Source: a virus. From it: DNA of 64,000 nucleotides. Numbering within the stretch: position 1 is the stretch's first letter; each line of letters begins with the position of its first letter. The notes beneath the pieces are model-generated. The model saw only the letters and a list, made by a program, of their open reading frames with translations, was not told where the DNA came from and did no database searches. Positions 8,057 through 25,618 of the stretch are shown piece by piece. The DNA lies in the IMG/VR virus record IMGVR_UViG_3300028786_000006, positions 62,001-126,000 of that record. One strand, given 5' to 3'. A program made the position numbers and the translations under genes.

Positions 8057-8761
8057 ATGGCCGTGAACCAATATTTCAACCATTTCAACCGGCAATCTGA
8101 ACAGAAGCTGGTTGAGGACTTGCTCATTGAAGCGGTCCAGGCCCGTGGGGTCGATGTCAAGTACATCCCCCGTGAGCGCTTCGGCGACGACTACTTCCTC
8201 GGCGAAGCCCCCATCTCGGAGTTCACAGACTACTACACCGTCGAAATGTACGTGGAGTCCGTCCAGAATTTCAACGGCGACGGCGACATGTTCGCCAAGT
8301 TCGGGATCATGTTCCAGGACAAGACCGAGCTGTACGTCATCCACAGCCGGTTTACCGCCGAGCTGTTGGCTGCTGACATCGAGCGGCCGCGTGAAGGTGA
8401 CCTCATCTACCTCCCCTTCTCAAACAGCCTGTTTGAGATCAACAAGGTGAAGTATGACGAGGAGTACTACCAGACCGGGATCAACTTCGGCTTCCGCCTG
8501 GTTTGCAACCTGTTCGAATATTCACACGAGAAGATGGACACCGGTATCCCCGACATCGACGACATCAATCGCATCCACGAACGCAACCCGGTGGATGGTA
8601 ACGAAAGTGAAGTTGAAGTAGTACAGACTGGGTTCTTTGCCCAGGACGGCGCGGCGATGACCAAAGAGGCCGTCGGAAACTTCAAATCGTTCGACCCGAA
8701 AAACCCGTTTGGTGAATACGACCCAGACGCTCGCCACGAAAGGGGTGATGGCTCATGCTAG
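8057..8761 (+). CDS. gp14: Neck protein (gp14)
   Basis: 234 residues. Aligns by eye along its length with T4 gp14: LVEDLLIEAVQARGVDVKYIPRE, MFAKFGIMFQDKTELYV and EGDLIYLPFSNSLFEINKVKYDEEYYQ (each conserved in the family). gp14 builds the neck with gp13 and gp15 at the head-tail junction. Its stop codon overlaps the gp15 start by 7 bases, giving translational coupling across 14-15-16-17. Confidence 0.9.
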   Translation: MAVNQYFNHFNRQSEQKLVEDLLIEAVQARGVDVKYIPRERFGDDYFLGEAPISEFTDYYTVEMYVESVQNFNGDGDMFAKFGIMFQDKTELYVIHSRFTAELLAADIERPREGDLIYLPFSNSLFEINKVKYDEEYYQTGINFGFRLVCNLFEYSHEKMDTGIPDIDDINRIHERNPVDGNESEVEVVQTGFFAQDGAAMTKEAVGNFKSFDPKNPFGEYDPDARHERGDGSC

Positions 8762-9573
8762 CCAATCAGCATTTCTACCATGGGTCCATCCGCCGGTATA
8801 CCGTGCTGATGGGGAGCCTGTTTGACGGCATGACCATCCGGCGTAAGGCCGGGACCAAATCTGAATTGGTGCCTGTCCCGGTCAGTTACTCTTCTGGACA
8901 GGCATACCTGAAGTATACAGGTGAGCGTGACTCCCGGGAGAAGGACATCCCCCGGGTCAGTAAGATCCTACCGGCCCTGGTGTTTTCCCTGACCAGCTTC
9001 TCGTTCGACCCAATGCGCAAGCAAAACTCACGAGAGCGCATCCAGAACACCGTGAACAAAGGTGACGGGTCAGTCACCAGCTACGTCTTCGGGCGTGTAC
9101 CGTACGACTTCGAATATGAGGTCGCGGTGAAGACTAAGAATATGGATGACATGCTGCAAATCGTTGAGCAGATCATCCCATATTTCGACCCTTCGCTGGT
9201 GATCAAGATGGATGACTTGCCGGCCACCGACCTGGATGCTCACCAAGACATCCGGATAGAGATGACCAACGTCCAAATCGACGACATCTACGAAGGTGAC
9301 ATGGAAGACCACCGGATGGTCGAGTGTACTATGAACTTCATCCTCCATGGATTCCTGTACAAGCGGGTACTGTCCGGCGCCTCAATCGAGAAGCTGAACT
9401 ATCGCTATACCACGGATGGGTCTGGAGACCAAACTTCCCTCGAAGATCTGTTCAGCGCCAAGGGTGAAGAGACCCCGGTGGAAACCGCCGCGCGACTTCT
9501 GAGCAACACTCTCGAGGGTGAACTATTTGCCCGTGTCAACGTGAACGCCGGGCTTGCTGAGGATCAGCCATGA
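8755..9573 (+). CDS. gp15: Tail terminator / sheath stabilisation protein (gp15)
   Basis: 272 residues, the same size as T4 gp15. The opening NQHFYHGSIRRYTVLMGSL and the central MLQIVEQIIPYFDPSL segment are family signatures. gp15 hexamers cap the sheath and tube and join the tail to the neck. Overlaps gp14 upstream and gp16 downstream (ATGA). Confidence 0.92.
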   Translation: MLANQHFYHGSIRRYTVLMGSLFDGMTIRRKAGTKSELVPVPVSYSSGQAYLKYTGERDSREKDIPRVSKILPALVFSLTSFSFDPMRKQNSRERIQNTVNKGDGSVTSYVFGRVPYDFEYEVAVKTKNMDDMLQIVEQIIPYFDPSLVIKMDDLPATDLDAHQDIRIEMTNVQIDDIYEGDMEDHRMVECTMNFILHGFLYKRVLSGASIEKLNYRYTTDGSGDQTSLEDLFSAKGEETPVETAARLLSNTLEGELFARVNVNAGLAEDQP

Positions 9574-10187
9574 AAGATGATGACGAAAGCGGCGAACGCC
9601 CGTCGATGAAAGCCACGCTCGGGTTGGTTGTGAACAACGACCCGCGCAGCAAGAACATCCGGGATGTCACCGACGACCTGGACCGCCTGACCCGCTCTCT
9701 CGCGGGTGATGGTATGGACATCAAGAGCTTCGGGCCTGGCCAGGACGATGACGACGAAGAGCCCCTACTGGAAGAGGCTGAGCTGGTAATTCTGGCCAAA
9801 CCGAGTTCGGTGATGGACTACCGAGAGTCTGATGTCAGCGAGGACTACCGGTACAGCCGTCAGATGCTCTATACGCTCCTCCATGAAGGAGGCTTGGCGT
9901 TGGCGTCAGCCTTACGGCTTGCGAAGCAGAGCCAGCACCCGAGGGCATTCGAGATCGTCAACAGCATGACCAATACCATGCGCGATCTCACCAAAGACCT
10001 GATGGTTCTTCAGAAAGCCTTCAACGACGTCACAGCCGGCAAGGAAGAGATGAAGAAGTTGCCGGGCGCGGTAGACGGCCAGGCGGCCTTGCCTGAACAC
10101 GAGAAGAAGATGTCAGGGACGACTGCAGACATCCTGAGGCTCGTGAAAGAAGCCCAAGGGGTGACGAGTGAGCAAAAGACAAACTGA
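9570..10187 (+). CDS. gp16: Terminase small subunit (gp16)
   Basis: 205 residues. Acidic N-terminal segment (GQDDDDEEPLLEEAE) followed by a helical core RYSRQMLYTLLHEGGLALASALRLAKQ and RAFEIVNSMTNTMRDLTKDLM (quoted in pieces), as in T4 gp16, the ring-forming DNA-recognition subunit that stimulates gp17. Gene order 15-16-17 is conserved. Its 3' end overlaps the gp17 start by 20 bases. Confidence 0.88.
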   Translation: MKDDDESGERPSMKATLGLVVNNDPRSKNIRDVTDDLDRLTRSLAGDGMDIKSFGPGQDDDDEEPLLEEAELVILAKPSSVMDYRESDVSEDYRYSRQMLYTLLHEGGLALASALRLAKQSQHPRAFEIVNSMTNTMRDLTKDLMVLQKAFNDVTAGKEEMKKLPGAVDGQAALPEHEKKMSGTTADILRLVKEAQGVTSEQKTN

Positions 10188-11877
10188 ATATGCGCCTTTC
10201 AAGCAGGGGTTCCCGGTAGCCGACGTCAGGCTTCCAATGGACAAGACGTACCGGGATAACCCCCAGATTAAGAAAGCTGATGTTGTCCTAGACCTGAATG
10301 AAGAACAGGTCATGGAACTCATCAAGTGCATGAACGACCCGATTTACTTCTGTCGTAACTATGTGAAGATCAGGACCACGGACGGTAAGATTCAGAACTT
10401 TGAACCTTACCCGTACCAGATCGAACTGATCAAGATGATGGTCGAATGTCGGTTCGTTGCCGCGCTGTTCGGGCGTCAGCAAGGTAAGACCACGACAGTA
10501 GGCGCGGTGATTGCCTGGTTCGGCATCTTCAACGAAAACCAGGACATGGCCATCCTCGCGAACAAGGGTGACCAGGCTCAGGAAATCGTTAGCCGTATCC
10601 AATTGGTGATCGAAAACCTTCCGTTCTTTATGCAGCCAGGTGTGCGCATCTGGAACAAACGATCCATGGAGCTCGGTAATGGCACCCGGATCTTCTCTGC
10701 TGCTACATCGGCCAGCTCCATCCGGGGCCGGTCCGTGTCCTTCCTCTATATCGACGAAGCGGCACACATCGCCAATGACATGGAATTCTATGAGTCCACC
10801 TACCCGGTAATTTCGGCTGGTGAAAACTCACGGGTGGTTATGACCACCACACCGAAGGGTGCGAGGGGGATGTTCTATCACCTCTATACCCAGGGCGAGA
10901 AAAAGCTCAACGATTACGCCACCATCAAATCGATCTGGAGCGACGTACCGGGTCGGGGTGAGAAGTGGAAGGCGACCACGCTGGCCAACATTGGCGGCAT
11001 GGCTCAGTGGCTCCAGGAATTCTGTTGTGAGTTCATCGGTTCCAGCGGCACGCTGATCAACCCTGAAGTTCTTCAGAGATTACAGTTCTCGAACCCCCTG
11101 AAAGAGTCGAAAGACGGTCACACCAAGATCTATTCTGAGGCTCGGGAAAACCGTAAGTACATCGCCATCGCTGACTGCGCCGAAGGCGTCGAGCAGGACA
11201 GTTCAGTACTCACAATCATCGATGTGGAAGAAATCCCATATCAGGTCGTGGCCAAGTACAAGAACAACAAGATCAGCCCGCTGCTGTTTCCATACACGAT
11301 TGTCAGCATGTGTAAGCAGTATGGCGGTTGCCCGGTCCTTGTCGAGTCCAACAATGACGTCGGTGGCCAGGTCACATACATCCTGAAGTACGAACTCGAA
11401 TACGAGGGAACACTGGGGTGCACGACTGACCGCAAGGGCCGTGAACTGAAGATCGGCGGGTACGGCGCCAAGCCTGGGGTCAAGACGACCCGGAAGGTCA
11501 AGAACGTTGGCTGTTCCAACCTCAAGACCCTCGTGGAAATGGACAAGCTGGTCCTTCACGACGAAGACATGCTCCAGGAACTGGGGACATTCATCGAGAA
11601 GAACAACAGCTACGAGGCCGACGACGATTGCCACGACGATTGCGTCATGACCTTGGTCCTGTTTTCGTGGTTGGTGAAACAGACATTCTTCATGGACTAT
11701 TCCAACAGCAACATCGTGACCAACCTGTATGACACCGTGGTGTCGGTAATGGATGAAGAGCTTCTTCCATTCGGGTTCATCGTCGATGCGGCTGAAGACA
11801 ACGAATCGGAATACAGAGAATACATGGGGATCAGGATCCACGAAGGTGGTTCCCTCGATGAATTCTTTCAGAACTGA
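10168..11877 (+). CDS. gp17: Terminase large subunit (gp17)
   Basis: 569 residues; the packaging motor ATPase and nuclease. Walker A is FGRQQGKTTT (residues 101-110), Walker B FLYIDEAAH (192-200) and the coupling motif MTTTPKG (225-231). The C-terminal RNase H-like nuclease begins with YIAIADCAEG, whose Asp336 is the first catalytic acid. Starts at GTG with AGGGG just upstream; T4 gp17 is 610 residues. No intein or frameshift seen. Confidence 0.96.
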   Translation: MSKRQTEYAPFKQGFPVADVRLPMDKTYRDNPQIKKADVVLDLNEEQVMELIKCMNDPIYFCRNYVKIRTTDGKIQNFEPYPYQIELIKMMVECRFVAALFGRQQGKTTTVGAVIAWFGIFNENQDMAILANKGDQAQEIVSRIQLVIENLPFFMQPGVRIWNKRSMELGNGTRIFSAATSASSIRGRSVSFLYIDEAAHIANDMEFYESTYPVISAGENSRVVMTTTPKGARGMFYHLYTQGEKKLNDYATIKSIWSDVPGRGEKWKATTLANIGGMAQWLQEFCCEFIGSSGTLINPEVLQRLQFSNPLKESKDGHTKIYSEARENRKYIAIADCAEGVEQDSSVLTIIDVEEIPYQVVAKYKNNKISPLLFPYTIVSMCKQYGGCPVLVESNNDVGGQVTYILKYELEYEGTLGCTTDRKGRELKIGGYGAKPGVKTTRKVKNVGCSNLKTLVEMDKLVLHDEDMLQELGTFIEKNNSYEADDDCHDDCVMTLVLFSWLVKQTFFMDYSNSNIVTNLYDTVVSVMDEELLPFGFIVDAAEDNESEYREYMGIRIHEGGSLDEFFQN

Positions 11878-11937: not shown

Positions 11938-14376
11938 ATGGCATTTTCCGTATCACCTTCCGTCGAGTTCACCGAACGCGACGCATCGGTATACGCGGAC
12001 CCACAGGTAGACGTGATCGGCGGTATGCCCGGCGTCTTCCTGTGGGGTCCAGCAAACGTACCGACCCTCATCACCGGCGGCGAACGCAATCTGGTCGACG
12101 TCTTCTACAAGCCGAATGACGAGACCTACCTGAGCTTCTTCGTGTTGGCCGACTACCTGTCGTACAGCTCGAAAGCCCAAGTGATTCGTTGCCTCGGCCC
12201 AGCGGCCCGCAACGCCGTACCGGAAGGCCAAGAACCTGTCAAAGTCGAAAACGACGATGACGCTGAGACCACTCAGCTGCCTGGCTACGACTTCTACGCT
12301 CGCTTCCCGGGCGCCCTGGGCAACGGCCTGTCGGTCGAAATCTGCGGTAAAGATGAATACGCCGCCTGGGAATTCCGTGGTTCGTTCAACTACACCCCAC
12401 AGGTAGGTGAATACCACATCGCTGTGATCGACACCACCGGCGCGTTTACCGGCGAAGGTGCGGCTCAGCAAACCGAAGGCCTGAACCTGAGCGGTAAAGT
12501 CGTTGGTGGCACCTACGAAGCTTTCACCCTGGCGGTGACTGCTGCGGCCCCAATCGCTTCCGGTAAACCTGAGATCATTCAGGTGCAGCTGGCAGGCGCG
12601 ACCACTGGCACCACTGTGACCATCCTCGGTCAAGCTGTTACTGTGAACGTCGGTGAAGATGCTTCGGTTGTAGCCGGTAAGGCTGAAACTCTGCTGAACA
12701 GCCTGCCAGCATTCGCGGGTGTTGTTCGTACTGGTGCAACCCTGGTTGTCACCTACGCCGCGAACACTGACCAGTCGCCTGTGCCTAACGGCGTGGAAAA
12801 CGGCATCACCAAGACGCATAGCGTGATTCAGCAGGGCAACAACACCAGCGTGATCGCCCTGGGTGGTACCAACGTGACCCTGACCGATGGCTTCACCGCC
12901 GCCGAAGTCGTGGCCGCCATCGCTACCGCCCTGACCGCTGACCCGGCTGTCAAGGAAGTTACCGTCCAAGGCACTAACGTCATGGCGAAGCGCTCTCCAG
13001 CTGCTTCTCTCGTGCCGATCGTGGAGTTTAATGCTGGTGGCCTGGTTATCGAGCCGACCATCACGACTCCTGCCAATACCGCCACTCCGGTGACTGTATT
13101 CGGTATTGTCGTGCAACTGGCCGACGGCGACACCCCTGGCCAAGCCGCGACCAAAATCGCGTCTGCTATCACCACATCCCCTGATGTGGCTAGCGCGACC
13201 GCTGCGGGTTCCACTGTCGTGTACCTGCGCAAGACGAAAGGCCGCAAGGTTGCCCTGACCGGTTTCGCCTCTTCGGGTCTGATCGGTACTGTCAACGTCC
13301 GTCAGACTGGTCGCCTGGGCTCGGTGCTCGAGAAATACGAGCTGATGAACGCCACCAAGGGTTCGAAGCACGCGAACGGCACCAGTGCTTACTTCGTGGA
13401 CAGCATCAACCGTAGCTCTCGCTATGTACGTGTTGGTGATGGCAGTGTTCTTCTGAGCACTCGCAGCGTGGCCTTCCTCGGCGGCGTCGATGACAACGTG
13501 AACGTGAACCTGACCAGCGGCTTCAACGAGTTGCTGAACAGCGAACGTCTCTCGGTGGACAACATCATCGCCGGCGCGGTAAGCGTTCAGGAACAGAAGG
13601 TCGCGTTCGACACCGCTGAATCCCGTCGTGACTGCATTGGCTGGGCTTCCCCTCCGATGGAAGCGGTGGTGAACAACCGCCAGAACGAAGTCGCTGCAGT
13701 CGTCGAATGGCGTCTGAACGAGTTCAACCCGAACACCTCCTACGGTGTGATGGACTGCAACTGGGCACTCATCTACGACAAGTACAACGATGTCAACCGC
13801 TGGATTCCTTGCTGCGGTGGCACTGCTGGCCTGTCGGCCCGGACTACCATCCTGGGCGAAGCGTGGTTCAGCCCGGCCGGCTACACCTACGGCCGTTACA
13901 AGAACTACATCCGCCTGGCATGGTCACCTGAGAAAACGCAGCGCGATGAGCTGTTCAAGAATCAGGTTAACCCGGTCATCAACGATCTCGGTAACGGCAT
14001 CGTGTTGTTCGGTGACAAAACTTCGATCACTCGCCCGAGCTCTTTCGACGCCATCAACGTCCGGAAGCTGTTCATCTTCCTCGAGAAGACCATGGCGAAC
14101 ATGGCGAAGTTTTACCTGTTCGGCATCAACGATGCGTTCACCCGCAAACAGTTCCTCGCGGCGGCCAACCCGCTGTTCCGAACTGTCCAGGGTCGCCGGG
14201 GCATCACCGACTTCCGCATCATCTGCGACGAGTCGAACAACCCAGGCGATGCGGTCGACCGGAAAGAGATGAACTGCGCGTTCTACGTGAAGCCAACCCT
14301 CTCCATTCGGAACATCTACCTGAACTTCGTCAGCGTCGGCCAGTCCGTCAGCTTCGAAGAAGTGGAAGGCATCTGA
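11938..14376 (+). CDS. gp18: Tail sheath protein (gp18) with a three-repeat insertion
   Basis: 812 residues against about 660 in T4. The N-terminal 190 residues (SPSVEFTERDASVYADP, VFLWGPANVPTL) and C-terminal 340 residues (YRNNIRLAW-like YKNYIRLAWSPEKTQRDELF, FRIICDESNNPGDAVDR) are the conserved sheath core that contracts during injection. Between them, residues about 224-442 hold three tandem copies of a roughly 60-residue beta domain, starting at about 224, 303 and 382, each with a T-V/L-x-L...A-x-x-I-A/L...P-x-V...V pattern. This extra domain would be exposed on the sheath surface. Uses C-ending codons throughout, like gp23. Confidence 0.93.
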   Translation: MAFSVSPSVEFTERDASVYADPQVDVIGGMPGVFLWGPANVPTLITGGERNLVDVFYKPNDETYLSFFVLADYLSYSSKAQVIRCLGPAARNAVPEGQEPVKVENDDDAETTQLPGYDFYARFPGALGNGLSVEICGKDEYAAWEFRGSFNYTPQVGEYHIAVIDTTGAFTGEGAAQQTEGLNLSGKVVGGTYEAFTLAVTAAAPIASGKPEIIQVQLAGATTGTTVTILGQAVTVNVGEDASVVAGKAETLLNSLPAFAGVVRTGATLVVTYAANTDQSPVPNGVENGITKTHSVIQQGNNTSVIALGGTNVTLTDGFTAAEVVAAIATALTADPAVKEVTVQGTNVMAKRSPAASLVPIVEFNAGGLVIEPTITTPANTATPVTVFGIVVQLADGDTPGQAATKIASAITTSPDVASATAAGSTVVYLRKTKGRKVALTGFASSGLIGTVNVRQTGRLGSVLEKYELMNATKGSKHANGTSAYFVDSINRSSRYVRVGDGSVLLSTRSVAFLGGVDDNVNVNLTSGFNELLNSERLSVDNIIAGAVSVQEQKVAFDTAESRRDCIGWASPPMEAVVNNRQNEVAAVVEWRLNEFNPNTSYGVMDCNWALIYDKYNDVNRWIPCCGGTAGLSARTTILGEAWFSPAGYTYGRYKNYIRLAWSPEKTQRDELFKNQVNPVINDLGNGIVLFGDKTSITRPSSFDAINVRKLFIFLEKTMANMAKFYLFGINDAFTRKQFLAAANPLFRTVQGRRGITDFRIICDESNNPGDAVDRKEMNCAFYVKPTLSIRNIYLNFVSVGQSVSFEEVEGI

Positions 14377-14425: not shown

Positions 14426-14956
14426 ATGCCTAACATCGCTGATTTCTTGGCGAGTATCTCGTCTGGCGTTCACCGCCAGTACAAGTACCGGGTAACCGTC
14501 AACTTCCCGCCTACCGTCGGGGACAATGACACCACCCGTACTGCGTCGCTCCTGGCCAAGTCTACCTCGGTGCCCCAGAGCATCCTTGGTGAGATCGTCA
14601 TCAACTGGGGTGGTCGTGAGATCCCGTTGCCGGGCGACCGTACCTTCCCTGAGTTTACGCTCAGCTTCATCAACACCAACGACTACGACGTGCGGAACGC
14701 CTGGGAATCCTGGTCTGAAATGATCAACGGTTCCGAGTCCAACACCGCCGGTGTCATCGATCCTGATGACTACATGCGCGACGTCACGCTCGAGATGCTC
14801 GGCCCTACCGACAATGTCATCAAGACCTACGTTCTCCAGAACGCCTGGCCGAAAGAAGTGGGTGCCATCGCCCTCGACATGACGTCTCTTGACAGTTTTT
14901 CAGAATACGATGTAGTGATGCGTTACATCAACCTGGCGTCTAACGTCACTCGTTGA
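14426..14956 (+). CDS. gp19: Tail tube protein (gp19)
   Basis: 176 residues; T4 gp19 is 163. Family signatures include the N-terminal FLASISSGVHRQYKYRVTV, the SVPQSILGEIVINWGGREIPLPGDRTF region and the C-terminal AIALDMTSLDSFSEYDVVMRY (quoted in parts). It polymerises into the inner tube through which DNA passes. A GC-rich hairpin GGGCCG/CGGCCC lies between gp18 and gp19 at 14385-14404, and CAGGAG provides the ribosome site. Confidence 0.93.
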   Translation: MPNIADFLASISSGVHRQYKYRVTVNFPPTVGDNDTTRTASLLAKSTSVPQSILGEIVINWGGREIPLPGDRTFPEFTLSFINTNDYDVRNAWESWSEMINGSESNTAGVIDPDDYMRDVTLEMLGPTDNVIKTYVLQNAWPKEVGAIALDMTSLDSFSEYDVVMRYINLASNVTR

Positions 14957-15170: not shown

Positions 15171-18100
15171 ATGTCCGATATCGACACAAGTAACGCGCCC
15201 TACTACGATGATTTTGACGCGGACAAGGGATTCTTGCGAGTCCTGTTCCGCCCGAAGTCGGTCCAAGCGCGTGAGCTGACACAGGCTCAAACCATTCTGC
15301 AGGAACAGGTTAACCGCCTGGGCCGGCATCTGTTCACCGAGGGGGCTATGGTCATCCCTGGTGGTATTCGCATCAGCAGCCAGCAGGACTACGTCAAACT
15401 GACGTTTATCTCTGGCTCGGTGTATGACGACATCGTTGACCGCACCGACATGGTCGTGTCCTCTGTCGTAAGCGGCCTGACTGCCAAAGTCAAGAAGGTT
15501 ATCCCAGCCGAAGGCGAAGACCCACCGTCGATCTTCGTGGAGTACACCAACTCCGGCTCGGACAACATGACCAAGAAGTTCTCGGTCGGGGAAAGTCTGA
15601 AGTTCTCTATCACCGTGGACAGCGTCAACCAGAACATCGCGAACGCTCGTTCGGATGCAGTAGGCTTCGGCACCTGGGCTCAGGTAGCGGCCGGCGTTTA
15701 CTTCGTGCGCGGCTTCATGGTTCAGAACGCAGCCCAAGACGTGGTGGTGTCGAAGTACACCCAGGACTCGTCCAATCGTATCGGCTTCAATGTTGTCGAA
15801 AGTATCGTCACCGAAGACGACGACGACAGCCTGCTGTCGAACGCCCAGGGTACTCCCAACTTCAAAGCGCCGGGCGCTCATCGCCTGAAGATCGAACTGA
15901 AGCTGGCGACCGTGTCCACGGATTCGGCTGTCGACGACAATTTCATCGAGCTCGCTCGGGTCGAAGACGGTGAGACCAAGGAGCTGGTGGTTGACACCGA
16001 ATACGCTCAGCTGATGAAAACCCTGGCTCAGCGCACTTACGAAGAGTCTGGTGACTACAGCCTGGGCCAATACGATTTCGTGCTGCGTGAGCACATCAAG
16101 GACTCCACCCATCCGGATGGCGTGTTCTCTGATGACAAGGGCGGCGACGAGTCGAAATTCGTGTTCGGTGTCAAGCCGAGCATCTCGTATGTCAAGGGCT
16201 ACCGGGTTCAGAACATCGCGACTGATTACGTCCCTGTTGAGAAGGCCCGCGACACCAATTTTGTGAACAACGCCGTGAGCTCGGCGATCTACCAGAACTA
16301 CCTGATCATCACCGGCATTCACAGCTTGCCTCCGACCGACATCCGGAAGAAGATCAGCCTGCATGATGCCCCGATCGTAGCCGGCAACACCGCCGGTTCC
16401 ATCATCGGCACCGCCCGCGTTCGCGCCATCCAGTTCGTGGCCGCCGGTTCCATCAAGGTGTTCCTGACCGACATCAAGATGAACAGCGGTAAGACGTTTA
16501 GCCAAGTACAGGGTCTGCGTTATACCGATGCTTCCAGCCTGTTCGGTGCAACTGTTTCCAGTGCTTCCATGTACGGTAGCAACCAGAACACCATGCTGTT
16601 CCCGTTGCCTTACCCGGCGACCAAGTCCCTGAAGCGGGCCGGTGCATCTGACACCACCTACGCGGTGACCCGTCAATACACGGTGACCACCAACGCATCT
16701 GGCGTTGCAACGGTTTCTCTGTCGTCCAACGAAACCTTCTCGACGCCTAACCAGGTCGAGTACCTCCTCTCCGCTACCGGGGCGGCTAACACAGGCGGCG
16801 CAGTAGCTTGGGCCGAGGGTCTGTTTGTACTCAGTGGCAGCCCCGTAGGACGTTCGATCACCATCAACGCCGGTGTGGGTAACGCGAGCAAGACCTTCGT
16901 GGCGAACGTGGTGGTTATCAAGCAACAACCACTGGAGAAGACCAAGACCAAGACCGTCAAGGTCGACGTCGTCACATTCACAGCCGAAACGTTCAAGGCT
17001 CTGACGAAGTGTGATGGGTTCAAACTGAACTCGGTTATCAACGACGCCACCGGCGAAGTAGTGACCAACAGCTACAACTTCTTCAATGGTCAGACTGATA
17101 ACGGTTACCGGGTCTGTGAGTTGCGCAGCAAAAGCGGCGCGGTCACCGGCGTTTTCCAGGTCACCTACGAATACTTCGAACACAGCCTTGGCGACTTCTT
17201 CAGCGTCGACTCGTACTCGAACGTGAATTATCAGGACATCCCGACTTACATCTCGTCTTCTGGGGCAGCTTATGAACTCAGCGATTGCTTGGACTTCCGG
17301 GCTCTCTACGATGCTTCTGGTGAAATCACTTCGGTTACTTTCGCTGGTGACGTTATTCGCCCTAGCGATACTGTGCGTGTTGATGTTGAGTACTATCTTC
17401 CTCGGCGCGATAGTGTATATGTGTCTTCTGATGGCACTTTTGGCGTTGTCAAAGGCGTTCCTGGTGATGAACCAGTATACCCGGAAGTGCCAACGGACTC
17501 GATGAAGATTGCTGAGCTGACTATCTCAGCTTACACCTTCGACCCGCTCAACGTCATCGTCCGCTTGATCGACAACAAGCGCTACACCATGCGCGACATC
17601 GGCAAGCTGGAACGTCGGATCGAAAACCTCGAGTACTACACCACTCTGAGCGCCATCGAATCGAAGGTCAACAAGACCCAGATCATTGACCCGGTAACCG
17701 GTAATGACCGATTCAAAAACGGTTTCGCGACTGACGGTTTCAGCGACTTCCGCCTGTGCGACCTCGACAGCGAAGAGTTCATGTTTGCCCTTGACCTCGA
17801 CGCAACCGTAGGCCAACCGGCATTCAGCCAGTTCCCTGGCGATATGGAATTCGGGTCCGGGGCCAACCATGCGAAGGGCCTGGGCCTTGTGAGCAAGTCT
17901 TACACGCTCAAGAAGACCATCGAACAGCCGTACGCGACCCGCATGATCAACGTTAACCCGTTTGCAGTGTTCACATGGAACGGTTACGTGAGTCTGAACC
18001 CAGCGTCGGACTTCTGGAGGGACGTCTGGTACTTGCCGCCGGTCATGGTCAACCAAACGGTCGACAACCGGGGCGCGGCCGTACAGGGCACAGTGGTCAA

Positions 18101-19991
18101 CCAATGGCGGTCGAGCTGGAAGAATCGGGACCTGAACACCCTGACTACAGTGACCACGTTTTCCGAATCCACTTCGGTGAGTATCGCGGACAACTTCATA
18201 CAGAATGTGGTCTACACATTCATGCGGGCTATCGGTATCGCGTTTTCTGGTACGTGCCTGCGCCCGTTCACCCGAGTGTACCCGTTCTTCGAGGACAAAC
18301 CTGTTTCGGCCTTCTGTCGACCGGCCGGTGGTGCTAACGGCCAAGCCCTGGTCACTGACGGCTCCGGCGCAATCAATGGGGTGTTCTCGGTACCAAACAC
18401 TTCAGCGAACAACTTCCGGACAGGAACCAACGTGTTTCGCCTTACAGACCAGGCGGATGATTCTCGCAACCCTAATCTGCTGACCACATTTGCTCAGACC
18501 ACGCACGCATCTGGTGGTTCGATCGATTATCGGCAGCAGACCGTTACTTCCACCCGCATCCTGTCGTTTACTGAATCTTCGTCTCTGACCACGGTGTACC
18601 AGAAGGATCCAATCGCTCAGACTTTCTGGGTCACGTCTACCGGCGGCGAGTACCTCGCGGCGGTTGATATCTTCATGGCCACGAAGTCGAGCACGATTCC
18701 CCTGATCGTGGAACTGCGGACTGCGGAAAACGGTTACCCAGGCGGCGATGCCCTGCCGTTCGGTCGTAAGGTGTTACTGCCTTCTCAGGTCGCCGTCAGC
18801 GCTAACGGGATGACGCCAACCCGAGTGACGTTTGATGATTTGGTTTACTTGGAACCTGGGCGCGAGTATTCTATCGTTCTGATGGCGGACACCCAGGAGT
18901 ACAACGCTTGGATCTGTCAGATGGGTGAAACCGTGTTGGGTACTACCCGCTCAGTTTCGGCACAACCAAACCTGGGATCGTTCTTCGTGTCTCAGAACGG
19001 CACCACTTGGACCGCCAACCAGAACCAGGATATGAAGTTCACCTTCTACCGGGCGCTGTTTAATACTGACGACACGGTGGTGACCTTCAATAACACGGCT
19101 CCTGTTTACCGCCCGGCCAAAGGGTTTAACCCGATAGTGACTGTTTCGGGAAACAGCCGCATCGTGTTGTCCCAGGCTACACACGGTTTGAAAGCTGGTG
19201 ATACTTGCATCATTCGCGGTGCAGTCGGCGGTAACGGCTTCAGCTCGGCCCTCCTGAACAAGTCTCAGGTGGTTGAGAGCGTCTCTGGGGATGATGTCAC
19301 CATTAACCTTGGCACTCTAGCGACCGCGACGGGGAACATCGGAGGGGATGCCGTAGAGGTGCTCTCGTCCTACCCTTTCAGCTTGCTCTACGCCAACGTG
19401 AACCAGTTGATCCTGGACGGCACTTCGGTTGAGTGGAAGGTGGTCGCCAAGAACCAAAGCAACCGGGGGCTTTCATCGCCGTTCTCGTTTACACCGGGCG
19501 AAAACCATGGCATGGACGCAGAGTCAGTGATTCAGGTTGGTGGTGACCTTCAGATGACTGCAACGCTGAAGACCACCCGCGATAACCTGAGCCCAGTGAT
19601 CGACCTTGACGGCTTCACCGCCGCCCTGGTACAGCCTCGAATCAACACCGACGTGTCCAACCCGCTTTGCCGGTACGTCACCAAGGATGTGAAGTTCGAT
19701 ACCCCAAGCACCACCGCCAAGATGTATGTCGGTGCGTTGTTACCGGGCGCGACCACCATGAAGTTCTACTACAAGTTGATCAGCACCGGCAGCAGCGCGG
19801 CCAGTGGTACTTGGGTGGAGCTTGCACCTTCGGCTGGGATTGTGAACGACGATATCCGGTTCATGGAGTACACGTACAACCTGACTGGGGTCGGCTCATT
19901 CAGCGGCTTCAAAGTGAAGATCGTTCTGTTGGGTGATGACCCGACCAACGTTCCTAAGCTGTCAGACTTCAGAGCCATCGCTCTGGCGTAA
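15171..19991 (+). CDS. Large virion protein with DUF4815-type N-terminus
   Basis: 1606 residues. The N-terminus, with YYDDFDADKGFLRVLFRP, VQARELTQAQTILQEQ and GNPxFK-like later strands, is characteristic of the DUF4815 family of large structural proteins in T4-like and cyanophage genomes, thought to be baseplate- or tail-fibre-linked. The body is beta-rich with linker-like Gly/Ser/Thr segments; residues about 770-800 carry a conserved helix LGKLERRIENLEYYTTLSAIE. Downstream repeats look like carbohydrate-binding or Ig-like folds but I cannot name them. Bases 17260-17480 use mostly T-ending codons, unlike the rest of the gene. Ends at a strong bidirectional terminator facing the minus-strand fibre cluster. 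Confidence 0.75.
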   Translation: MSDIDTSNAPYYDDFDADKGFLRVLFRPKSVQARELTQAQTILQEQVNRLGRHLFTEGAMVIPGGIRISSQQDYVKLTFISGSVYDDIVDRTDMVVSSVVSGLTAKVKKVIPAEGEDPPSIFVEYTNSGSDNMTKKFSVGESLKFSITVDSVNQNIANARSDAVGFGTWAQVAAGVYFVRGFMVQNAAQDVVVSKYTQDSSNRIGFNVVESIVTEDDDDSLLSNAQGTPNFKAPGAHRLKIELKLATVSTDSAVDDNFIELARVEDGETKELVVDTEYAQLMKTLAQRTYEESGDYSLGQYDFVLREHIKDSTHPDGVFSDDKGGDESKFVFGVKPSISYVKGYRVQNIATDYVPVEKARDTNFVNNAVSSAIYQNYLIITGIHSLPPTDIRKKISLHDAPIVAGNTAGSIIGTARVRAIQFVAAGSIKVFLTDIKMNSGKTFSQVQGLRYTDASSLFGATVSSASMYGSNQNTMLFPLPYPATKSLKRAGASDTTYAVTRQYTVTTNASGVATVSLSSNETFSTPNQVEYLLSATGAANTGGAVAWAEGLFVLSGSPVGRSITINAGVGNASKTFVANVVVIKQQPLEKTKTKTVKVDVVTFTAETFKALTKCDGFKLNSVINDATGEVVTNSYNFFNGQTDNGYRVCELRSKSGAVTGVFQVTYEYFEHSLGDFFSVDSYSNVNYQDIPTYISSSGAAYELSDCLDFRALYDASGEITSVTFAGDVIRPSDTVRVDVEYYLPRRDSVYVSSDGTFGVVKGVPGDEPVYPEVPTDSMKIAELTISAYTFDPLNVIVRLIDNKRYTMRDIGKLERRIENLEYYTTLSAIESKVNKTQIIDPVTGNDRFKNGFATDGFSDFRLCDLDSEEFMFALDLDATVGQPAFSQFPGDMEFGSGANHAKGLGLVSKSYTLKKTIEQPYATRMINVNPFAVFTWNGYVSLNPASDFWRDVWYLPPVMVNQTVDNRGAAVQGTVVNQWRSSWKNRDLNTLTTVTTFSESTSVSIADNFIQNVVYTFMRAIGIAFSGTCLRPFTRVYPFFEDKPVSAFCRPAGGANGQALVTDGSGAINGVFSVPNTSANNFRTGTNVFRLTDQADDSRNPNLLTTFAQTTHASGGSIDYRQQTVTSTRILSFTESSSLTTVYQKDPIAQTFWVTSTGGEYLAAVDIFMATKSSTIPLIVELRTAENGYPGGDALPFGRKVLLPSQVAVSANGMTPTRVTFDDLVYLEPGREYSIVLMADTQEYNAWICQMGETVLGTTRSVSAQPNLGSFFVSQNGTTWTANQNQDMKFTFYRALFNTDDTVVTFNNTAPVYRPAKGFNPIVTVSGNSRIVLSQATHGLKAGDTCIIRGAVGGNGFSSALLNKSQVVESVSGDDVTINLGTLATATGNIGGDAVEVLSSYPFSLLYANVNQLILDGTSVEWKVVAKNQSNRGLSSPFSFTPGENHGMDAESVIQVGGDLQMTATLKTTRDNLSPVIDLDGFTAALVQPRINTDVSNPLCRYVTKDVKFDTPSTTAKMYVGALLPGATTMKFYYKLISTGSSAASGTWVELAPSAGIVNDDIRFMEYTYNLTGVGSFSGFKVKIVLLGDDPTNVPKLSDFRAIALA

Positions 19992-21615: not shown

Positions 21616-22050
21616 TTAGCTCGGGGTTTCAGTTACGGTCGGACCCTGAAGCCCAAGGGCCGGTAATTCGAACAGAAACTGTTTGACGGTTGGTTGGGTG
21701 CGGTTGCCGGCTTCAACTGCAGCCAGCTGGGTGTAGCAGTAATCCCAAACCAGCGAGCGCCAGGCTCGGAACGCCTTACCGTCTTTCTGAAACTTAGTCA
21801 CTGCTGGTTCTTCAGCATACGTGACCGCGTTGATGATGTTGTCGTAGCCATAGAGCTTGGCCGCTGAGTCGAGGTGGTTCTGAACGGCCACCTCATATTC
21901 CTTTTCAGTAGCGTCAGGCAGCCCCCACTTACCGGTAGCCAGGGCAACAAACGTCGGGTCTGTGCGCTCCGTTTTCATGGTGATCCAGCCTTCAGGGCAG
22001 ACACCATCGTACTGTTGGAGGGATTGTCCTACTTTAGCGAAAACTGCCAT
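21616..22050 (-). CDS. Putative tail fibre assembly protein
   Basis: 144 residues, starting at an overlap with the preceding fibre stop codon (TAATG). The segment VAVQNHLDSAAKLYGYDNIINA and later AFRAWRSLVWDYCYTQLAAV is a familiar layout in phage tail-fibre assembly/DUF4376-like proteins that follow fibre genes. Such proteins act as chaperones for fibre trimerisation or as small tail components. Assignment is by pattern and position. Confidence 0.6.
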   Translation of the reverse strand: MAVFAKVGQSLQQYDGVCPEGWITMKTERTDPTFVALATGKWGLPDATEKEYEVAVQNHLDSAAKLYGYDNIINAVTYAEEPAVTKFQKDGKAFRAWRSLVWDYCYTQLAAVEAGNRTQPTVKQFLFELPALGLQGPTVTETPS

Positions 22051-23564
22051 TACACTGCTCCTTTAGACTTCCAAACTTTGACTCGTGATGGTAGAGAAGT
22101 AACAGTCCCTGTCGTCCCAAATGGGTCCCCCATGCTGGAACTATCTACCTTGATGGCCGTAACCCCTGTTTGGACGACAATACTACCCCCGTTGAGCTGG
22201 TTTGCCGCCGCGCCATACGAGGATGGAGACGAAAGTTGAAACCCTGGGTTACCCCACACCCCACCATATAGAACTTCCAATTGGCACATGACATGATAGC
22301 CAGGGAACGGGTTCGAAATCACATACCGGCTATTGACACCAATGTTGGCAGGGGAAGCCTGAGTACCGCCGTTAGGGTAAACGATGGTAAAATCGACCTG
22401 GCCGTTCAGAGTCTGAAAAGCGGCGTTCAGAACAGCGTAATCCGTTGCCAGCTGGGCGGCGTTGGCCGAGCCAGGATTGACTACTGCACCGAACAGTTTG
22501 ATCACCCAGCAACCGGTGGCACTGATCGGTCGGGATTCAGAACCACCGGAATTGTTGATCGTGATGCCTGTGGTCTTGCTGCCTGTGTTGGTTGAACCAG
22601 CAATAGCGCTGAACACGCCACCAGCTGTATACGCGGTGCCTGTTGTCACACCCATTGAGTGGAAGTGACCTGGGTCATTGATTGTATGGCCGTGGTCGAG
22701 GTTGCTAGACGATTGAATCACACCCGCAATGGCCGCCGACAACGTACCATCACCCCGCATGAACACAGCGCCCAAGCTACCAGCCGCTTTACCGTTGTAA
22801 TCTGGCATGCGGAACGTAGTAGAACCATCACCTACCGTGAAAGAACCGCGCTGTGTTGGGTCAGCGGTCCAGTTGGCTTCAGTGACGACAGGCATTTGGC
22901 CGCCGAGAATGGCCGTCGTCGCATCAGGGTAGGTGGCCCGAGAAACGGTTTGGCCGTCGGCCGGTACTCGACCGGCCGGAATCGCGGCCCGCAAACCAGG
23001 CCACCATTCAACGTGGAACATCGGTACAGCTGAGGCCAGGATCTTGGCGTCTGCTTCCGCTTTGGTGTAGACGTTTGCGATGTTGAACGTATCGAAGGCA
23101 ATAACCTGAAGGATGTCACCGGCCTGTAGACCAACACCAACGACAACGCTCGTGCCAGTGGAGGCGGTTACATCAGTGCCCTGGGAGAGAGCCACGCCGT
23201 TGACGGAGATAATCGTCGCTGTTGGAACATACCCCAGGTTCACGCCGTGAATGTCAACGCCGCTGAAGGTCGTCTGGCCAGCGCTGGCCACGAACTCATA
23301 CGTCACCAGGGTGCCGTTGATGCTGCCGATACCCAGGGTTACCCAGCCGCCGGCGATGTAACCTTCAAACTTCCCAGTTTCGGTGTTAGCCCGGAGGATA
23401 CCGTCGACGGGCGCCGGGTCACGGGCAGCGGTGTTACCAGAGGTGAGAACCAGGGTGCCCACCATGGTGAGCTTGCCGTTTACCGTGACACCCTTGGCAA
23501 ACGTCGAATCTTCCATGGACCACAGCCCATGCTTTACTTTGAATGGAACTTTATTGACAGCCAT
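22050..23564 (-). CDS. Tail fibre protein with collar-like and HxH tip region
   Basis: 504 residues. An N-terminal segment (KVPFKVKHGLWSMEDSTFAKG) typical of fibres that dock on a baseplate, then a repeat domain at 88-176 duplicated in the 241-residue protein, a tail-collar-like region near residues 185-290 (AAIPAGRVPADGQTVSR, FRMPDYNGK, GAVFMRGDGT), and a HGHTINDPGHFHSMG stretch whose HxH pattern recalls metal-binding fibre tips such as T4 gp12/gp37. The C-terminal 130 residues look like a separate beta domain. A receptor-binding role is likely. Confidence 0.72.
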   Translation of the reverse strand: MAVNKVPFKVKHGLWSMEDSTFAKGVTVNGKLTMVGTLVLTSGNTAARDPAPVDGILRANTETGKFEGYIAGGWVTLGIGSINGTLVTYEFVASAGQTTFSGVDIHGVNLGYVPTATIISVNGVALSQGTDVTASTGTSVVVGVGLQAGDILQVIAFDTFNIANVYTKAEADAKILASAVPMFHVEWWPGLRAAIPAGRVPADGQTVSRATYPDATTAILGGQMPVVTEANWTADPTQRGSFTVGDGSTTFRMPDYNGKAAGSLGAVFMRGDGTLSAAIAGVIQSSSNLDHGHTINDPGHFHSMGVTTGTAYTAGGVFSAIAGSTNTGSKTTGITINNSGGSESRPISATGCWVIKLFGAVVNPGSANAAQLATDYAVLNAAFQTLNGQVDFTIVYPNGGTQASPANIGVNSRYVISNPFPGYHVMCQLEVLYGGVWGNPGFQLSSPSSYGAAANQLNGGSIVVQTGVTAIKVDSSSMGDPFGTTGTVTSLPSRVKVWKSKGAV

Positions 23565-23595: not shown

Positions 23596-23617
23596 GTAGC
23601 CCTCACAGGAGGGCTAC
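23596..23617 (-). other. Hairpin at the junction of two fibre genes
   Basis: GTAGCCCT / AGGGCTAC inverted repeat overlapping the stop codon of the 671-residue fibre gene. There is no T-tract, so attenuation or mRNA protection is as likely as termination. Confidence 0.4.
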
Positions 23618-25618
23618 GGTCTTGAGTGAGAAGGAACATGAGCCGGTGTTCGGTAACACGTTCAGGATCACGTTGTTGCCGCTGACAGAGTACGAGAGGG
23701 TCATGAGGTCAGGGCCGACTTGCCCATACTCAGTTACATAGACTTCGGCCGCGCCGTCATGAGCCAGAAGCACCTCTACCACCTGACGAGGCCCGCCGGC
23801 TGTCGCAACGCAGCTGATGATGAACTTACCGCCCTGATAGACAGTTTTGTCTATGCTGGTAATGGCCGTACTCGTCGTGATGTTGGTCAGAAAGACGTTG
23901 GCTGCGTACAACGAAGCGACCTTGGCGTTCAAAGTCTTCAGGTTGACAGCGTCGTTGTCCGCAACCGGATCAGCCAACCAGTTGATCTGCTTGGCAGTAC
24001 CGGCGCTTGTGCCCATGGCCACCGGCACTGCCATCAATACAGAAGTGCTCTGAATTCTGACCTTCTCAACCCCAGTAACACTGAAACCAATACCGGTGCC
24101 AATGTTGAACATACCGTCAGCCGGGTATCCATTGAAGTTCAGAATCGGGAGAGCTGCTGTGCCCTGCTCCAACACCAATTGCTTCTTGGCGGAGATCGCC
24201 GTGGGTGTGACCCGCAGAACATCAACACCGCCCGGCCTGATTGCCACCAGGGTCGGGTCAGCAGCGATTATGTCAACATCGTTCGTTCCGCGGATACGAA
24301 CTGTCGAACCACGCACCCGTGCTTCGTTGGTTGCACTGAGCAGGACGTGGCGGGTTGCGCCGTCCAGGTAGTCAGTCAGGTAACCCAGTGAGTTCAGGGA
24401 GATGTATTTCCCCGCCTTGGTGAAGAGGCCTGTGGACTTGACCGAGAACACCTCTTGACCGGAGACCTGATGAACCACTTCACCGGCCAGGGCGTACGCG
24501 CCTGTGGTTGCGTCGCTGAAATTGTATGAGAGGGCACCGGTACTGCCGTCCTGGAACGTAGCCGATCCCAGGATTACCGGGTTCAGGCGCGGTAACTTCT
24601 TGTCATCCAGGTCCGAGATCGCAGTTTCGGTGTCAACTGTAGAAGCCTGGATGTCTTTCTTGTTCGCGTTCAGGCGGTCGTACGTGACCATCGAGGACCT
24701 GTAGTCACCGTAGGCGGCAACGACCATGCCCTGGCGATACGAACCCTGGGCCCCGGCAAACGAAACGACCTTGGACTGGTCGCGGAGCAGAAGCCATGCA
24801 CTACCAGACCAAACAACCGAGTCTCCCTGCCTGAACAGCTCAGTTGTTCCATCACCGACGATGTCAGCAGACCCGTCAGCAGACACCACATACTGAGAAC
24901 CATCCGGGCTGTCACCAGTCGGCGTTACTGGCGCGACAGCTTTCGCCAGGGTGGCATTGAGCGCATCACCGGCAACCGCGTTGGTGCTTGGGTCCCATGT
25001 ACCGCGAATCCTCAGACTCTTGGTGAGTCCACCCAAGAATGCAGACTTCTTGATCTTCCTGAGCAACCCGTCGGTCACACTGTGGAACAGCAGCTCATCC
25101 TCTTGGGCCGCTGTACCCGCCTCCGGTGTACCTGTGATGTCGACACGCAGCTTCGCGTTCGCGTCGTTCGTGGTTAATTTCAGACCGGGGATGAAGTCCA
25201 GTTCAACTTCGATGCTGTTGGGGGAACCCGCAACAAATCGAAGGCCCTTGCCGGCGACGTTGGTGTCTACGGCGCGCTTGTCCATGTACTCCTTGGCCAC
25301 CGCCCCGCGCCCGCCAACTGGGTCCGTCGCAATCGTAACCTCCTGGCCACTCGGGACGGTCAACCCAGAACTGAACAGCGCCGGGGCGAGGAAGTTCTTT
25401 TCGCCCTCGATCGACTGGGCCATGTCGTTATTGACGAAGCGTTCGTACAGGATGTCGACCAGGCGCTTCAGTTCGTGAGACATGGCCGAGGACGGTACGT
25501 GGTCTTCAAGGTTGGTTTCGAACGATTGGGTGATGGCGCTCTTGGGGATCAGGTAGTCTACCCGCTCAAGCCGCTCGTCGATCTCCTCACCATTATACTT
25601 GGACAGAAAGTCAGACAT
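23603..25618 (-). CDS. Long tail fibre-like protein (proximal part)
   Basis: 671 residues, starting MSDFLSKYNGEEIDERL. Helical N-terminus to about residue 75, followed by beta-rich fibre shaft (GLTVPSGQEVTIATDP, KGLRFVAGSPNSIEVELDF) and a pattern of strands typical of fibres with repeated ALPILNFNGYPADG-like motifs. The last 90 residues (TSTAITSIDKTVYQGGKFI) are a small beta domain seen at C-termini of many fibre proteins. Starts 8 bases inside the end of the upstream baseplate gene, so the two are coupled. It probably links the baseplate to the downstream fibres. Confidence 0.7.
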   Translation of the reverse strand: MSDFLSKYNGEEIDERLERVDYLIPKSAITQSFETNLEDHVPSSAMSHELKRLVDILYERFVNNDMAQSIEGEKNFLAPALFSSGLTVPSGQEVTIATDPVGGRGAVAKEYMDKRAVDTNVAGKGLRFVAGSPNSIEVELDFIPGLKLTTNDANAKLRVDITGTPEAGTAAQEDELLFHSVTDGLLRKIKKSAFLGGLTKSLRIRGTWDPSTNAVAGDALNATLAKAVAPVTPTGDSPDGSQYVVSADGSADIVGDGTTELFRQGDSVVWSGSAWLLLRDQSKVVSFAGAQGSYRQGMVVAAYGDYRSSMVTYDRLNANKKDIQASTVDTETAISDLDDKKLPRLNPVILGSATFQDGSTGALSYNFSDATTGAYALAGEVVHQVSGQEVFSVKSTGLFTKAGKYISLNSLGYLTDYLDGATRHVLLSATNEARVRGSTVRIRGTNDVDIIAADPTLVAIRPGGVDVLRVTPTAISAKKQLVLEQGTAALPILNFNGYPADGMFNIGTGIGFSVTGVEKVRIQSTSVLMAVPVAMGTSAGTAKQINWLADPVADNDAVNLKTLNAKVASLYAANVFLTNITTSTAITSIDKTVYQGGKFIISCVATAGGPRQVVEVLLAHDGAAEVYVTEYGQVGPDLMTLSYSVSGNNVILNVLPNTGSCSFSLKTVALL

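Follow-up and report, generated by a model that had tools for sequence, protein, structure and literature searches.

Three tandem modules in the tail sheath protein of a Pseudomonas-phage-like virus

The sheath gene, its neighbours and the layout of its insert

The stretch of DNA analyzed here (the window, 64,000 nucleotides) covers bases 62001-126000 of a source record of 162,341 bp from a Pseudomonas-phage-like virus. Its terminase, sheath and tube genes are consecutive, keeping the order gp17-gp18-gp19 (Table 1). Sequence and modelled structure both identify the product of the middle gene as a T4-type gp18 contractile tail sheath protein. Three Pfam models (PF04984, PF17482 and PF22671), which represent the subtilisin-like, C-terminal and domain III N-terminal parts of such proteins, each score above their gathering thresholds, and the match to the tail sheath family phrog_23 has an E value of 1e-98. 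The full-length AlphaFold model, made with 43 sequences in the alignment, has a mean pLDDT of 84.8 and a pTM of 0.66, the latter leaving the orientation of the domains loosely fixed. The model superimposes on the variant sheath of Klebsiella phage KP1 (9f4a; Z 42.7, 2.2 A over 472 residues) and on the T4 sheath (3j2m; Z 36.0). Among named phages, Pseudomonas phage Cygsa01 (PP179332) has the nearest sheath, also 812 aa long and 77.7% identical.

Minimal sheaths have 543-585 aa; compared with them, the protein has an extra stretch between a V-x-D-x-x-G-x-F motif (D at residue 165) and an L-E-K-Y motif (from residue 464), a position referred to here as site 2. This insert is about 287 aa long, or 293 aa by the boundaries of the 35-sheath alignment described below. 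It is rich in alanine (16%), threonine (15%) and valine (13%) and contains no cysteine. On either side of it, identity to Cygsa01 is 77% (residues 1-171) and 87% (C-terminal core).

The insert consists of a linker of two predicted strands and three modules – R1, R2 and R3. A reading of the DNA made from the sequence alone (the sequence-only reading) had proposed that gp18 holds three tandem repeats of about 60 residues, forming an extra domain of about 220 residues at 12607-13263 (residues 224-442). The three repeats are confirmed by the shuffles, the independent profile and the helix spacing given below, and the region is the right one, but its limits were drawn too narrowly (the modules occupy 12571-13311, residues 212-458), and both the repeats (89, 79 and 79 aa) and the insert as a whole are longer than was proposed. 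By eye, the linker (12454-12570) appears to hold extra copies of the first strand of the module. The clearest case of this is the sheath L111, in which the first strand is seemingly repeated two to three times before module 1, at residues ~175-220.

Two further observations concern the neighbouring genes. Following the tube gene is a 1606-aa gene (15171-19991, +; L001 6480-10784) with a DUF4815 domain (PF16075, E 4e-51) and a phrog_358 match. Cygsa01 has an open frame that matches this gene at 64% identity, yet no CDS is annotated over it, and a tRNA-Ala annotated on the opposite strand inside the frame is probably a false call. In several Ackermannviridae (L011, L013, L015 and L017), homing endonuclease genes (GIY-YIG or other) are neighbours of the sheath gene or the tube gene, and the terminase genes of these phages are ~500 bp longer than the 1710 bp of the window terminase. 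A Dickeya one is named as a HINT-domain protein, and this name together with the greater length makes an intein likely in those Ackermannviridae.

Table 1. Features of the sheath gene and nearby tail genes, in window coordinates
Feature	Coordinates	Strand	Basis
gp15-type tail sheath stabiliser	8755-9573	+	PF16724 E 7e-61
Large terminase gp17	10168-11877	+	PF03237, PF17289
gp18-type tail sheath protein P0001, 812 aa	11938-14376	+	PF17482, PF04984, PF22671; phrog_23; fold
N-terminal sheath core, residues 1-172	11938-12453	+	aligned throughout zero-insert sheaths
Whole insert at site 2, residues 173-459	12454-13314	+	between V-x-D-x-x-G-x-F and L-E-K-Y motifs
Two-strand linker ahead of module 1, residues 173-211	12454-12570	+	predicted strands 177-186, 194-201
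Module R1, residues 212-300, 89 aa	12571-12837	+	predicted gp11-finger fold; best-supported copy
Module R2, residues 301-379, 79 aa	12838-13074	+	profile match 306-377, helix 321-333; least conserved copy
Module R3, residues 380-458, 79 aa	13075-13311	+	profile match 375-453, helix 400-411, likeness to R2
C-terminal sheath core, residues 459-812	13312-14373	+	subtilisin-like and C-terminal Pfam domains
gp19-type tail tube protein	14426-14956	+	phrog_45 E 1e-41

Homology and fold of the modules

Aligned in pairs, R2 and R3 score 90 (z 9.2), a value reached by none of 1000 shuffles, and R1 and R3 score 61 (z 4.7), reached by one of 1000. The alignment of R1 with R2 alone is not significant (180 of 1000 shuffles score as high). 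Independent evidence comes from a profile of the module built from six single-module Ackermannviridae sheaths, with no multi-copy sheath included. This profile finds three consecutive units in the window sheath, the first at residues 216-298, with an E value of 2e-8 for the whole protein and individual values of 5e-6 for R1, 0.04 (weak) for R2 and 0.001 for R3. Together R2 and R3 score 20.7 bits, against a maximum of 8.0 in 2000 shuffles. The helices of the AlphaFold model (242-254, 321-333 and 400-411) start 79 and 79 residues apart, and the predicted secondary structure runs three times through the order strand-strand-helix-strand-strand, with one or two further strands. It is practically certain that the insert holds three homologous modules. 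The idea that there is no true repeat – only a repetitive-looking Ala/Thr/Val-rich beta region, or one single core domain – could draw on the composition of the insert and on the R1-R2 alignment, but composition-preserving shuffles are far exceeded, the secondary structure is predicted thrice repeated and the region is cleanly absent from 19 of 35 sheaths, and it is refuted as far as sequence can refute it. A single non-repetitive domain in the sheath core, looked for in structure predictions and in related sheaths, is likewise not what is found.

The same profile identifies three units in the IMG/VR sheath L022 and in L109 and L111, and two in Vibrio D531 and L023. It finds two of the three modules of Cygsa01, missing R2, and two in phiW-14; none is found by it in the sheath of Vibrio phage YC. 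No Pfam or NCBIfam family scores above its cut-off for the modules, and there are no further copies in the genome beyond the three in the sheath, either in the whole record or among the 605 open frames of the window. A recent tandem duplication at the DNA level was considered and rejected, with only 17- and 12-nt families shared between two places inside the insert. With hardly any DNA-level repeat left, the module copies appear to be old.

The fold is best defined for R1. In a model of the insert by itself (seven sequences; mean pLDDT 74.5), R1 is mostly above 90 and the end of R3 is below 50; just seven sequences back the insert in each of the AlphaFold alignments. The best solved match to this model is T4 gp11 (Foldseek E 4e-4), and R1 superimposes on the gp11 finger domain (1el6, residues 81-187) with a VIA-align Z of 13.9, 1.4 A over 92 residues and 24% identity. 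Next come a baseplate chain of Klebsiella phage KP1 (9f4b_FD) and then the sheaths of Milano, Mu, A-1(L), 7-7-1 and PhiTE, with a Z of 10.6 for R1 against Milano sheath residues 89-201, 9.6 for R1 against Mu sheath residues 97-214, and 8.7 for the R3 region against the PhiTE sheath. R2 and R3 are predicted to have the same order of strands and helix. As R2 is barely spanned by the fold-search rows and R3 ends in low confidence, these two are assigned the fold from their sequence homology and from the secondary structure prediction. Regarding an Ig fold, each module has a helix, gp11 is the best solved match, and single modules match no Pfam Ig family. Fold matches at Z ~8 include flagellins and podoviral tail proteins, and likeness of fold is by itself no evidence of function.

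The link to gp11 can also be followed in sequence. The baseplate wedge family phrog_963 matches the whole sheath with an E value of 1e-7, over its positions 103-186 of 219, and R1 alone with an E value of 7e-5. With the insert as query, tblastn over 50,697 phage records (E <= 0.01) returned only two, Cygsa01 and a baseplate wedge protein of Vibrio phage EniLVp02. The EniLVp02 protein is gp11-like – it matches phrog_963 over its full length, which together with its gene order indicates that phrog_963 is the gp11 family – and it is also matched by the single-module profile (iE 3e-5). Against T4 gp11 itself, the profile scores weakly (E 0.1). Since the phrog_963 match is confined to the finger part of the family, the sheath is not itself a gp11. 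The repeats had been described in the sequence-only reading as absent from T4; this is correct for T4 gp18 at this site, but the module is present in T4 gp11, and T4 gp18 also has a protruding domain of its own, domain I, elsewhere in the protein.

Insertion site, copy number and history of the array

The 35 sheaths of the panel were chosen for alignment from 187 sequences, several of which are the window itself and eight of which were dropped for want of coverage on both sides of the site; the panel omits OLIVR5, a T4-like sheath and other redundant marine sheaths. Site 2 inserts in the panel fall into four length classes: 6-15 aa in 19 sheaths, 105-113 aa in seven, 203-226 aa in three, and 293-310 aa in six. 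At a different position of the same region, site 1, there is an insert of 80-205 aa in 12 of the 19 sheaths that have no insert at site 2, and both sites are filled in none of the 35. The site 1 inserts (~80-205 aa) are without the module and occur in marine, Kyanoviridae-like and rhizobial sheaths (L018, L033, L061, L115 and others). In OLIVR5, site 2 measures 7 or 240 aa depending on the alignment.

The insertion point of the window sheath corresponds to residue ~286-292 of a T4-like sheath. Domain II of T4 gp18 is described as residues 88-97 and 189-345, with the protruding domain I at 98-188 (PMC3004832), which places the insert in the equivalent of domain II, while domain I enters elsewhere. 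The T4-like sheath OE5505 seemed at first to carry 89 aa at site 1 as well as 37 aa at site 2, both through misalignment; in a better alignment its own insert lies further upstream and site 2 is empty.

Insert length is not a pure count of modules, as is evident from two phages. phiW-14 has a 310-aa insert in which only two modules are detectable, the first being undetected. Vibrio phage YC (L102) has a 226-aa insert at site 2 with no detectable module, though four domains are counted in this sheath by Evseev 2022 (PMC9230969); its insert consists either of very divergent modules or of a replacement. Two sister sequences differ in copy number, with two modules in Vibrio D531 (VibD531) and one in Vibrio SD25 (VibSD25; UFBoot 90). 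Searches of IMG/VR gave no relatives of Vibrio D531, only itself for L023, and itself and one distant locus for phiW-14, and the bacterial genomes searched held no relatives of the window sheath. The sheath of Acinetobacter phage SH-Ab 15599 (L104) is annotated as two frames, 901-1206 (101 aa) and 1212-2819 (535 aa), either from a frameshift in the record or because the gene is split.

The order of the modules was compared in four of the six three-module sheaths: the window, L022, L109 and L111. Cygsa01, which is too close to the window sheath, and phiW-14, with its undetected first module, were left out. Modules at the same position are 32.3% identical, compared with 24.6% where the positions differ and 25.9% among the modules of one protein, and of the 216 permutations of the position labels only the true one reaches the observed value. 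With same-position modules the most alike, the triple array seems to predate the divergence of these distant phages. A tree of the sheath core (507 columns, 35 sheaths) was rooted on the zero-module sheaths as a single outgroup clade. These sheaths form one clade (UFBoot 100), and the single-module Ackermannviridae are nested within the three-module group with moderate support (UFBoot 98, 86 and 81). In all five of the single-module sheaths tested, the Ackermannviridae module is nearest to R1. Support was mostly low in an earlier tree of 23 modules, and no conclusion here draws on it.

Together these results point to an old triple array that was probably reduced later, to one module in most Ackermannviridae, the direction of change being read from the rooted tree. 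This economical reading also has a later change in copy number in the Vibrio phages (two in D531, one in SD25), its direction likewise inferred. The reverse history takes the lone module of the Ackermannviridae as the ancestral state, with an independent triplication on the way to this phage. In its favor, single-module sheaths outnumber every other non-zero class of the panel (seven of 16 insert-bearing sheaths). Separate triplications are not expected to produce the same-position likeness seen in four distant phages, nor would they explain why single-module phages nest inside the three-module group or why hardly any repeat is left in the DNA, and a recent expansion, already disfavoured, is unlikely.

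Selection on the three modules is uneven. Between the window and Cygsa01, dN/dS is 0.16 in R1, 0.53 in R2, 0.26 in R3 and 0.20-0.23 in the core, and the corresponding identities are 65/89, 44/79 (56%), 56/79 and 439/525. The divergence of R2 is significant relative to R1 and R3 together (Fisher p 0.014) and to the core (p 1e-7). The middle module evolves fastest in this one pair of phages, which fits relaxed constraint too.

A possible external arm and its known relatives

The best explanation of these findings as a whole, given a probability of about 0.6, is that each sheath subunit pairs an ordinary contractile gp18 core with an arm for docking or adhesion, built on the outside from three alpha/beta modules in tandem and derived from an old array. 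The modules would belong to the T4 gp11-finger or sheath-extension-domain type and emerge as a loop from the domain II equivalent, and the arm would be separate from the contraction machinery. Model and analogy make it very likely that the modules are on the outside of the tail. Residues 91-203 of the Milano sheath are described as an external sheath extension domain, or SED (PMC10811340), so that the fold of the module is, going by that description, known on the outside of a solved sheath. The suggestion of the sequence-only reading that the repeats decorate the sheath surface is upheld by the location of the insert in the domain II equivalent, outside the conserved core, and by its having the fold of this Milano domain. 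The effect on tail stability or host binding that the same reading suggested may hold in either form, and both had been proposed earlier for additional sheath domains in general (Evseev 2022, PMC9230969). The insert leaves the core and rejoins it, so the arm may form an arch, with R1 and R3 at its base and R2 probably at its tip. Repeated all along the tail, such arms could give the phage's own fibres a place to dock when they lie on the extended tail, could adhere weakly to the cell surface, or could do both. Genes for the fibre and connector proteins of the phage are at 22050-23564 and 23603-25618 of the window, on the complement strand.

Precedents favor docking. Domain I of T4 gp18 is reported to protrude, to make no gp18-gp18 contacts and to bind both the baseplate and the long tail fibres in their retracted state, and three T4 gp11 finger domains to clamp the middle domain of gp10 (PMC3004832). 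In Mu, domain III of the sheath points outward and the sheath is a docking site for fibres (PMC11915804); the matched residues 97-214 of the Mu sheath presumably are this domain. Adhesion, appendages and stability are all published ideas for additional sheath domains in general (Evseev 2022, PMC9230969). By these analogies, the chance is even that the role is docking or adhesion, as opposed to stabilisation or none at all.

The modules could instead touch neighbouring subunits or rings on the outside of the tail, cementing the extended sheath or setting the force that contraction requires. Stabilisation has been proposed for additional domains generally, citing domain II of phage 812, which touches its neighbour (PMC9230969), and the Milano sheath is described as locked by inter-subunit disulphides (PMC10811340). 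A fixed, ordered array of three modules in distant phages is also what a lattice contact needs. The absence of cysteine from the insert argues against Milano-like locking, T4 domain I is without inter-subunit contacts (PMC3004832), and no part of the protein is less conserved than R2, unlike what a lattice interface would show; a stabilising role is a minority prospect. Less probable still is a dispensable passenger, a duplication-prone external module that drifts in number and whose function is not tied to its count. The different copy numbers of the sisters VibD531 and VibSD25 and the 19 of 35 aligned sheaths without an insert at site 2 are as such drift would have it, but the order of the modules is conserved across distant phages and purifying selection on R1 is as strong as on the core (dN/dS 0.16 compared with 0.20-0.23).

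For the docking or adhesion arm, a more speculative extension may be offered. The gp11 finger might be a shared building block, used in T4 as a baseplate clamp and here, as an ancient tandem triple, in a jointed arm on every sheath subunit. The tail shaft might then act as a multivalent fibre- or cell-binding surface, with a tip (R2) that diversifies on a fixed base and a reach set by the number of modules, from 0 to 3.

The reason for the extra outer sheath domains of large phages is an open question. A homologous series of 0, 1, 2 and 3 modules at one site, which includes the Vibrio D531 and SD25 sister sequences with their differing copy numbers, enables direct comparison and lends itself well, as a natural series, to the question of what the exterior of the phage tail is for. 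The tie between a sheath decoration and a named baseplate domain, whose clamping role is known, also gives a lead on what to search for.

Sheaths as large as this one with several domains, and extra sheath domains, have been published before (Evseev 2022, PMC9230969). That study's type 3 sheaths likewise have external domains on a conserved core and come from large phages around Ackermannviridae – RSP15 (826 aa) is given five or more domains, YC four, and Kamild, RC-2014, PhaxI and phiMAM1 three. The window sheath, with a core and three modules, is of this type (a conserved core with additional domains, at least three domains in all). The sizes reported for type 3 sheaths fit the one- and three-module classes described here, and RSP15 probably belongs to the three-module class, judging by its length and a note in the Cygsa01 annotation. 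Evseev 2022 counts domains and calls many of them Ig-like; in its main text the words "tandem" and "repeat" are absent and "duplicat" occurs once, for whole genes (PMC9230969). In the titles and abstract openings of the open-access papers searched, bioRxiv excepted, no paper was found on tandem homologous sheath modules, a gp11-finger link or a copy-number series.

Among individual systems, the Cygsa01 sheath is the closest, with the same insert and three modules; it differs in R2 (56% identical) and is annotated merely as a tail sheath protein. T4 gp11 shares the fold of R1, but it is a baseplate protein in its own right, a trimer whose chains each have one finger, whereas here there are three copies inside a sheath subunit. 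The external domains of the Milano (SED), 7-7-1, A-1(L) and Mu sheaths have the same fold and are also on the sheath, but as one copy near residue 90 of shorter proteins; the modules of the window sheath are in tandem, near residue 172, in the domain II equivalent. Domain I of T4 gp18 (98-188) is also a protruding insert in domain II, at another position, and is a six-stranded barrel with a helix rather than three modules.
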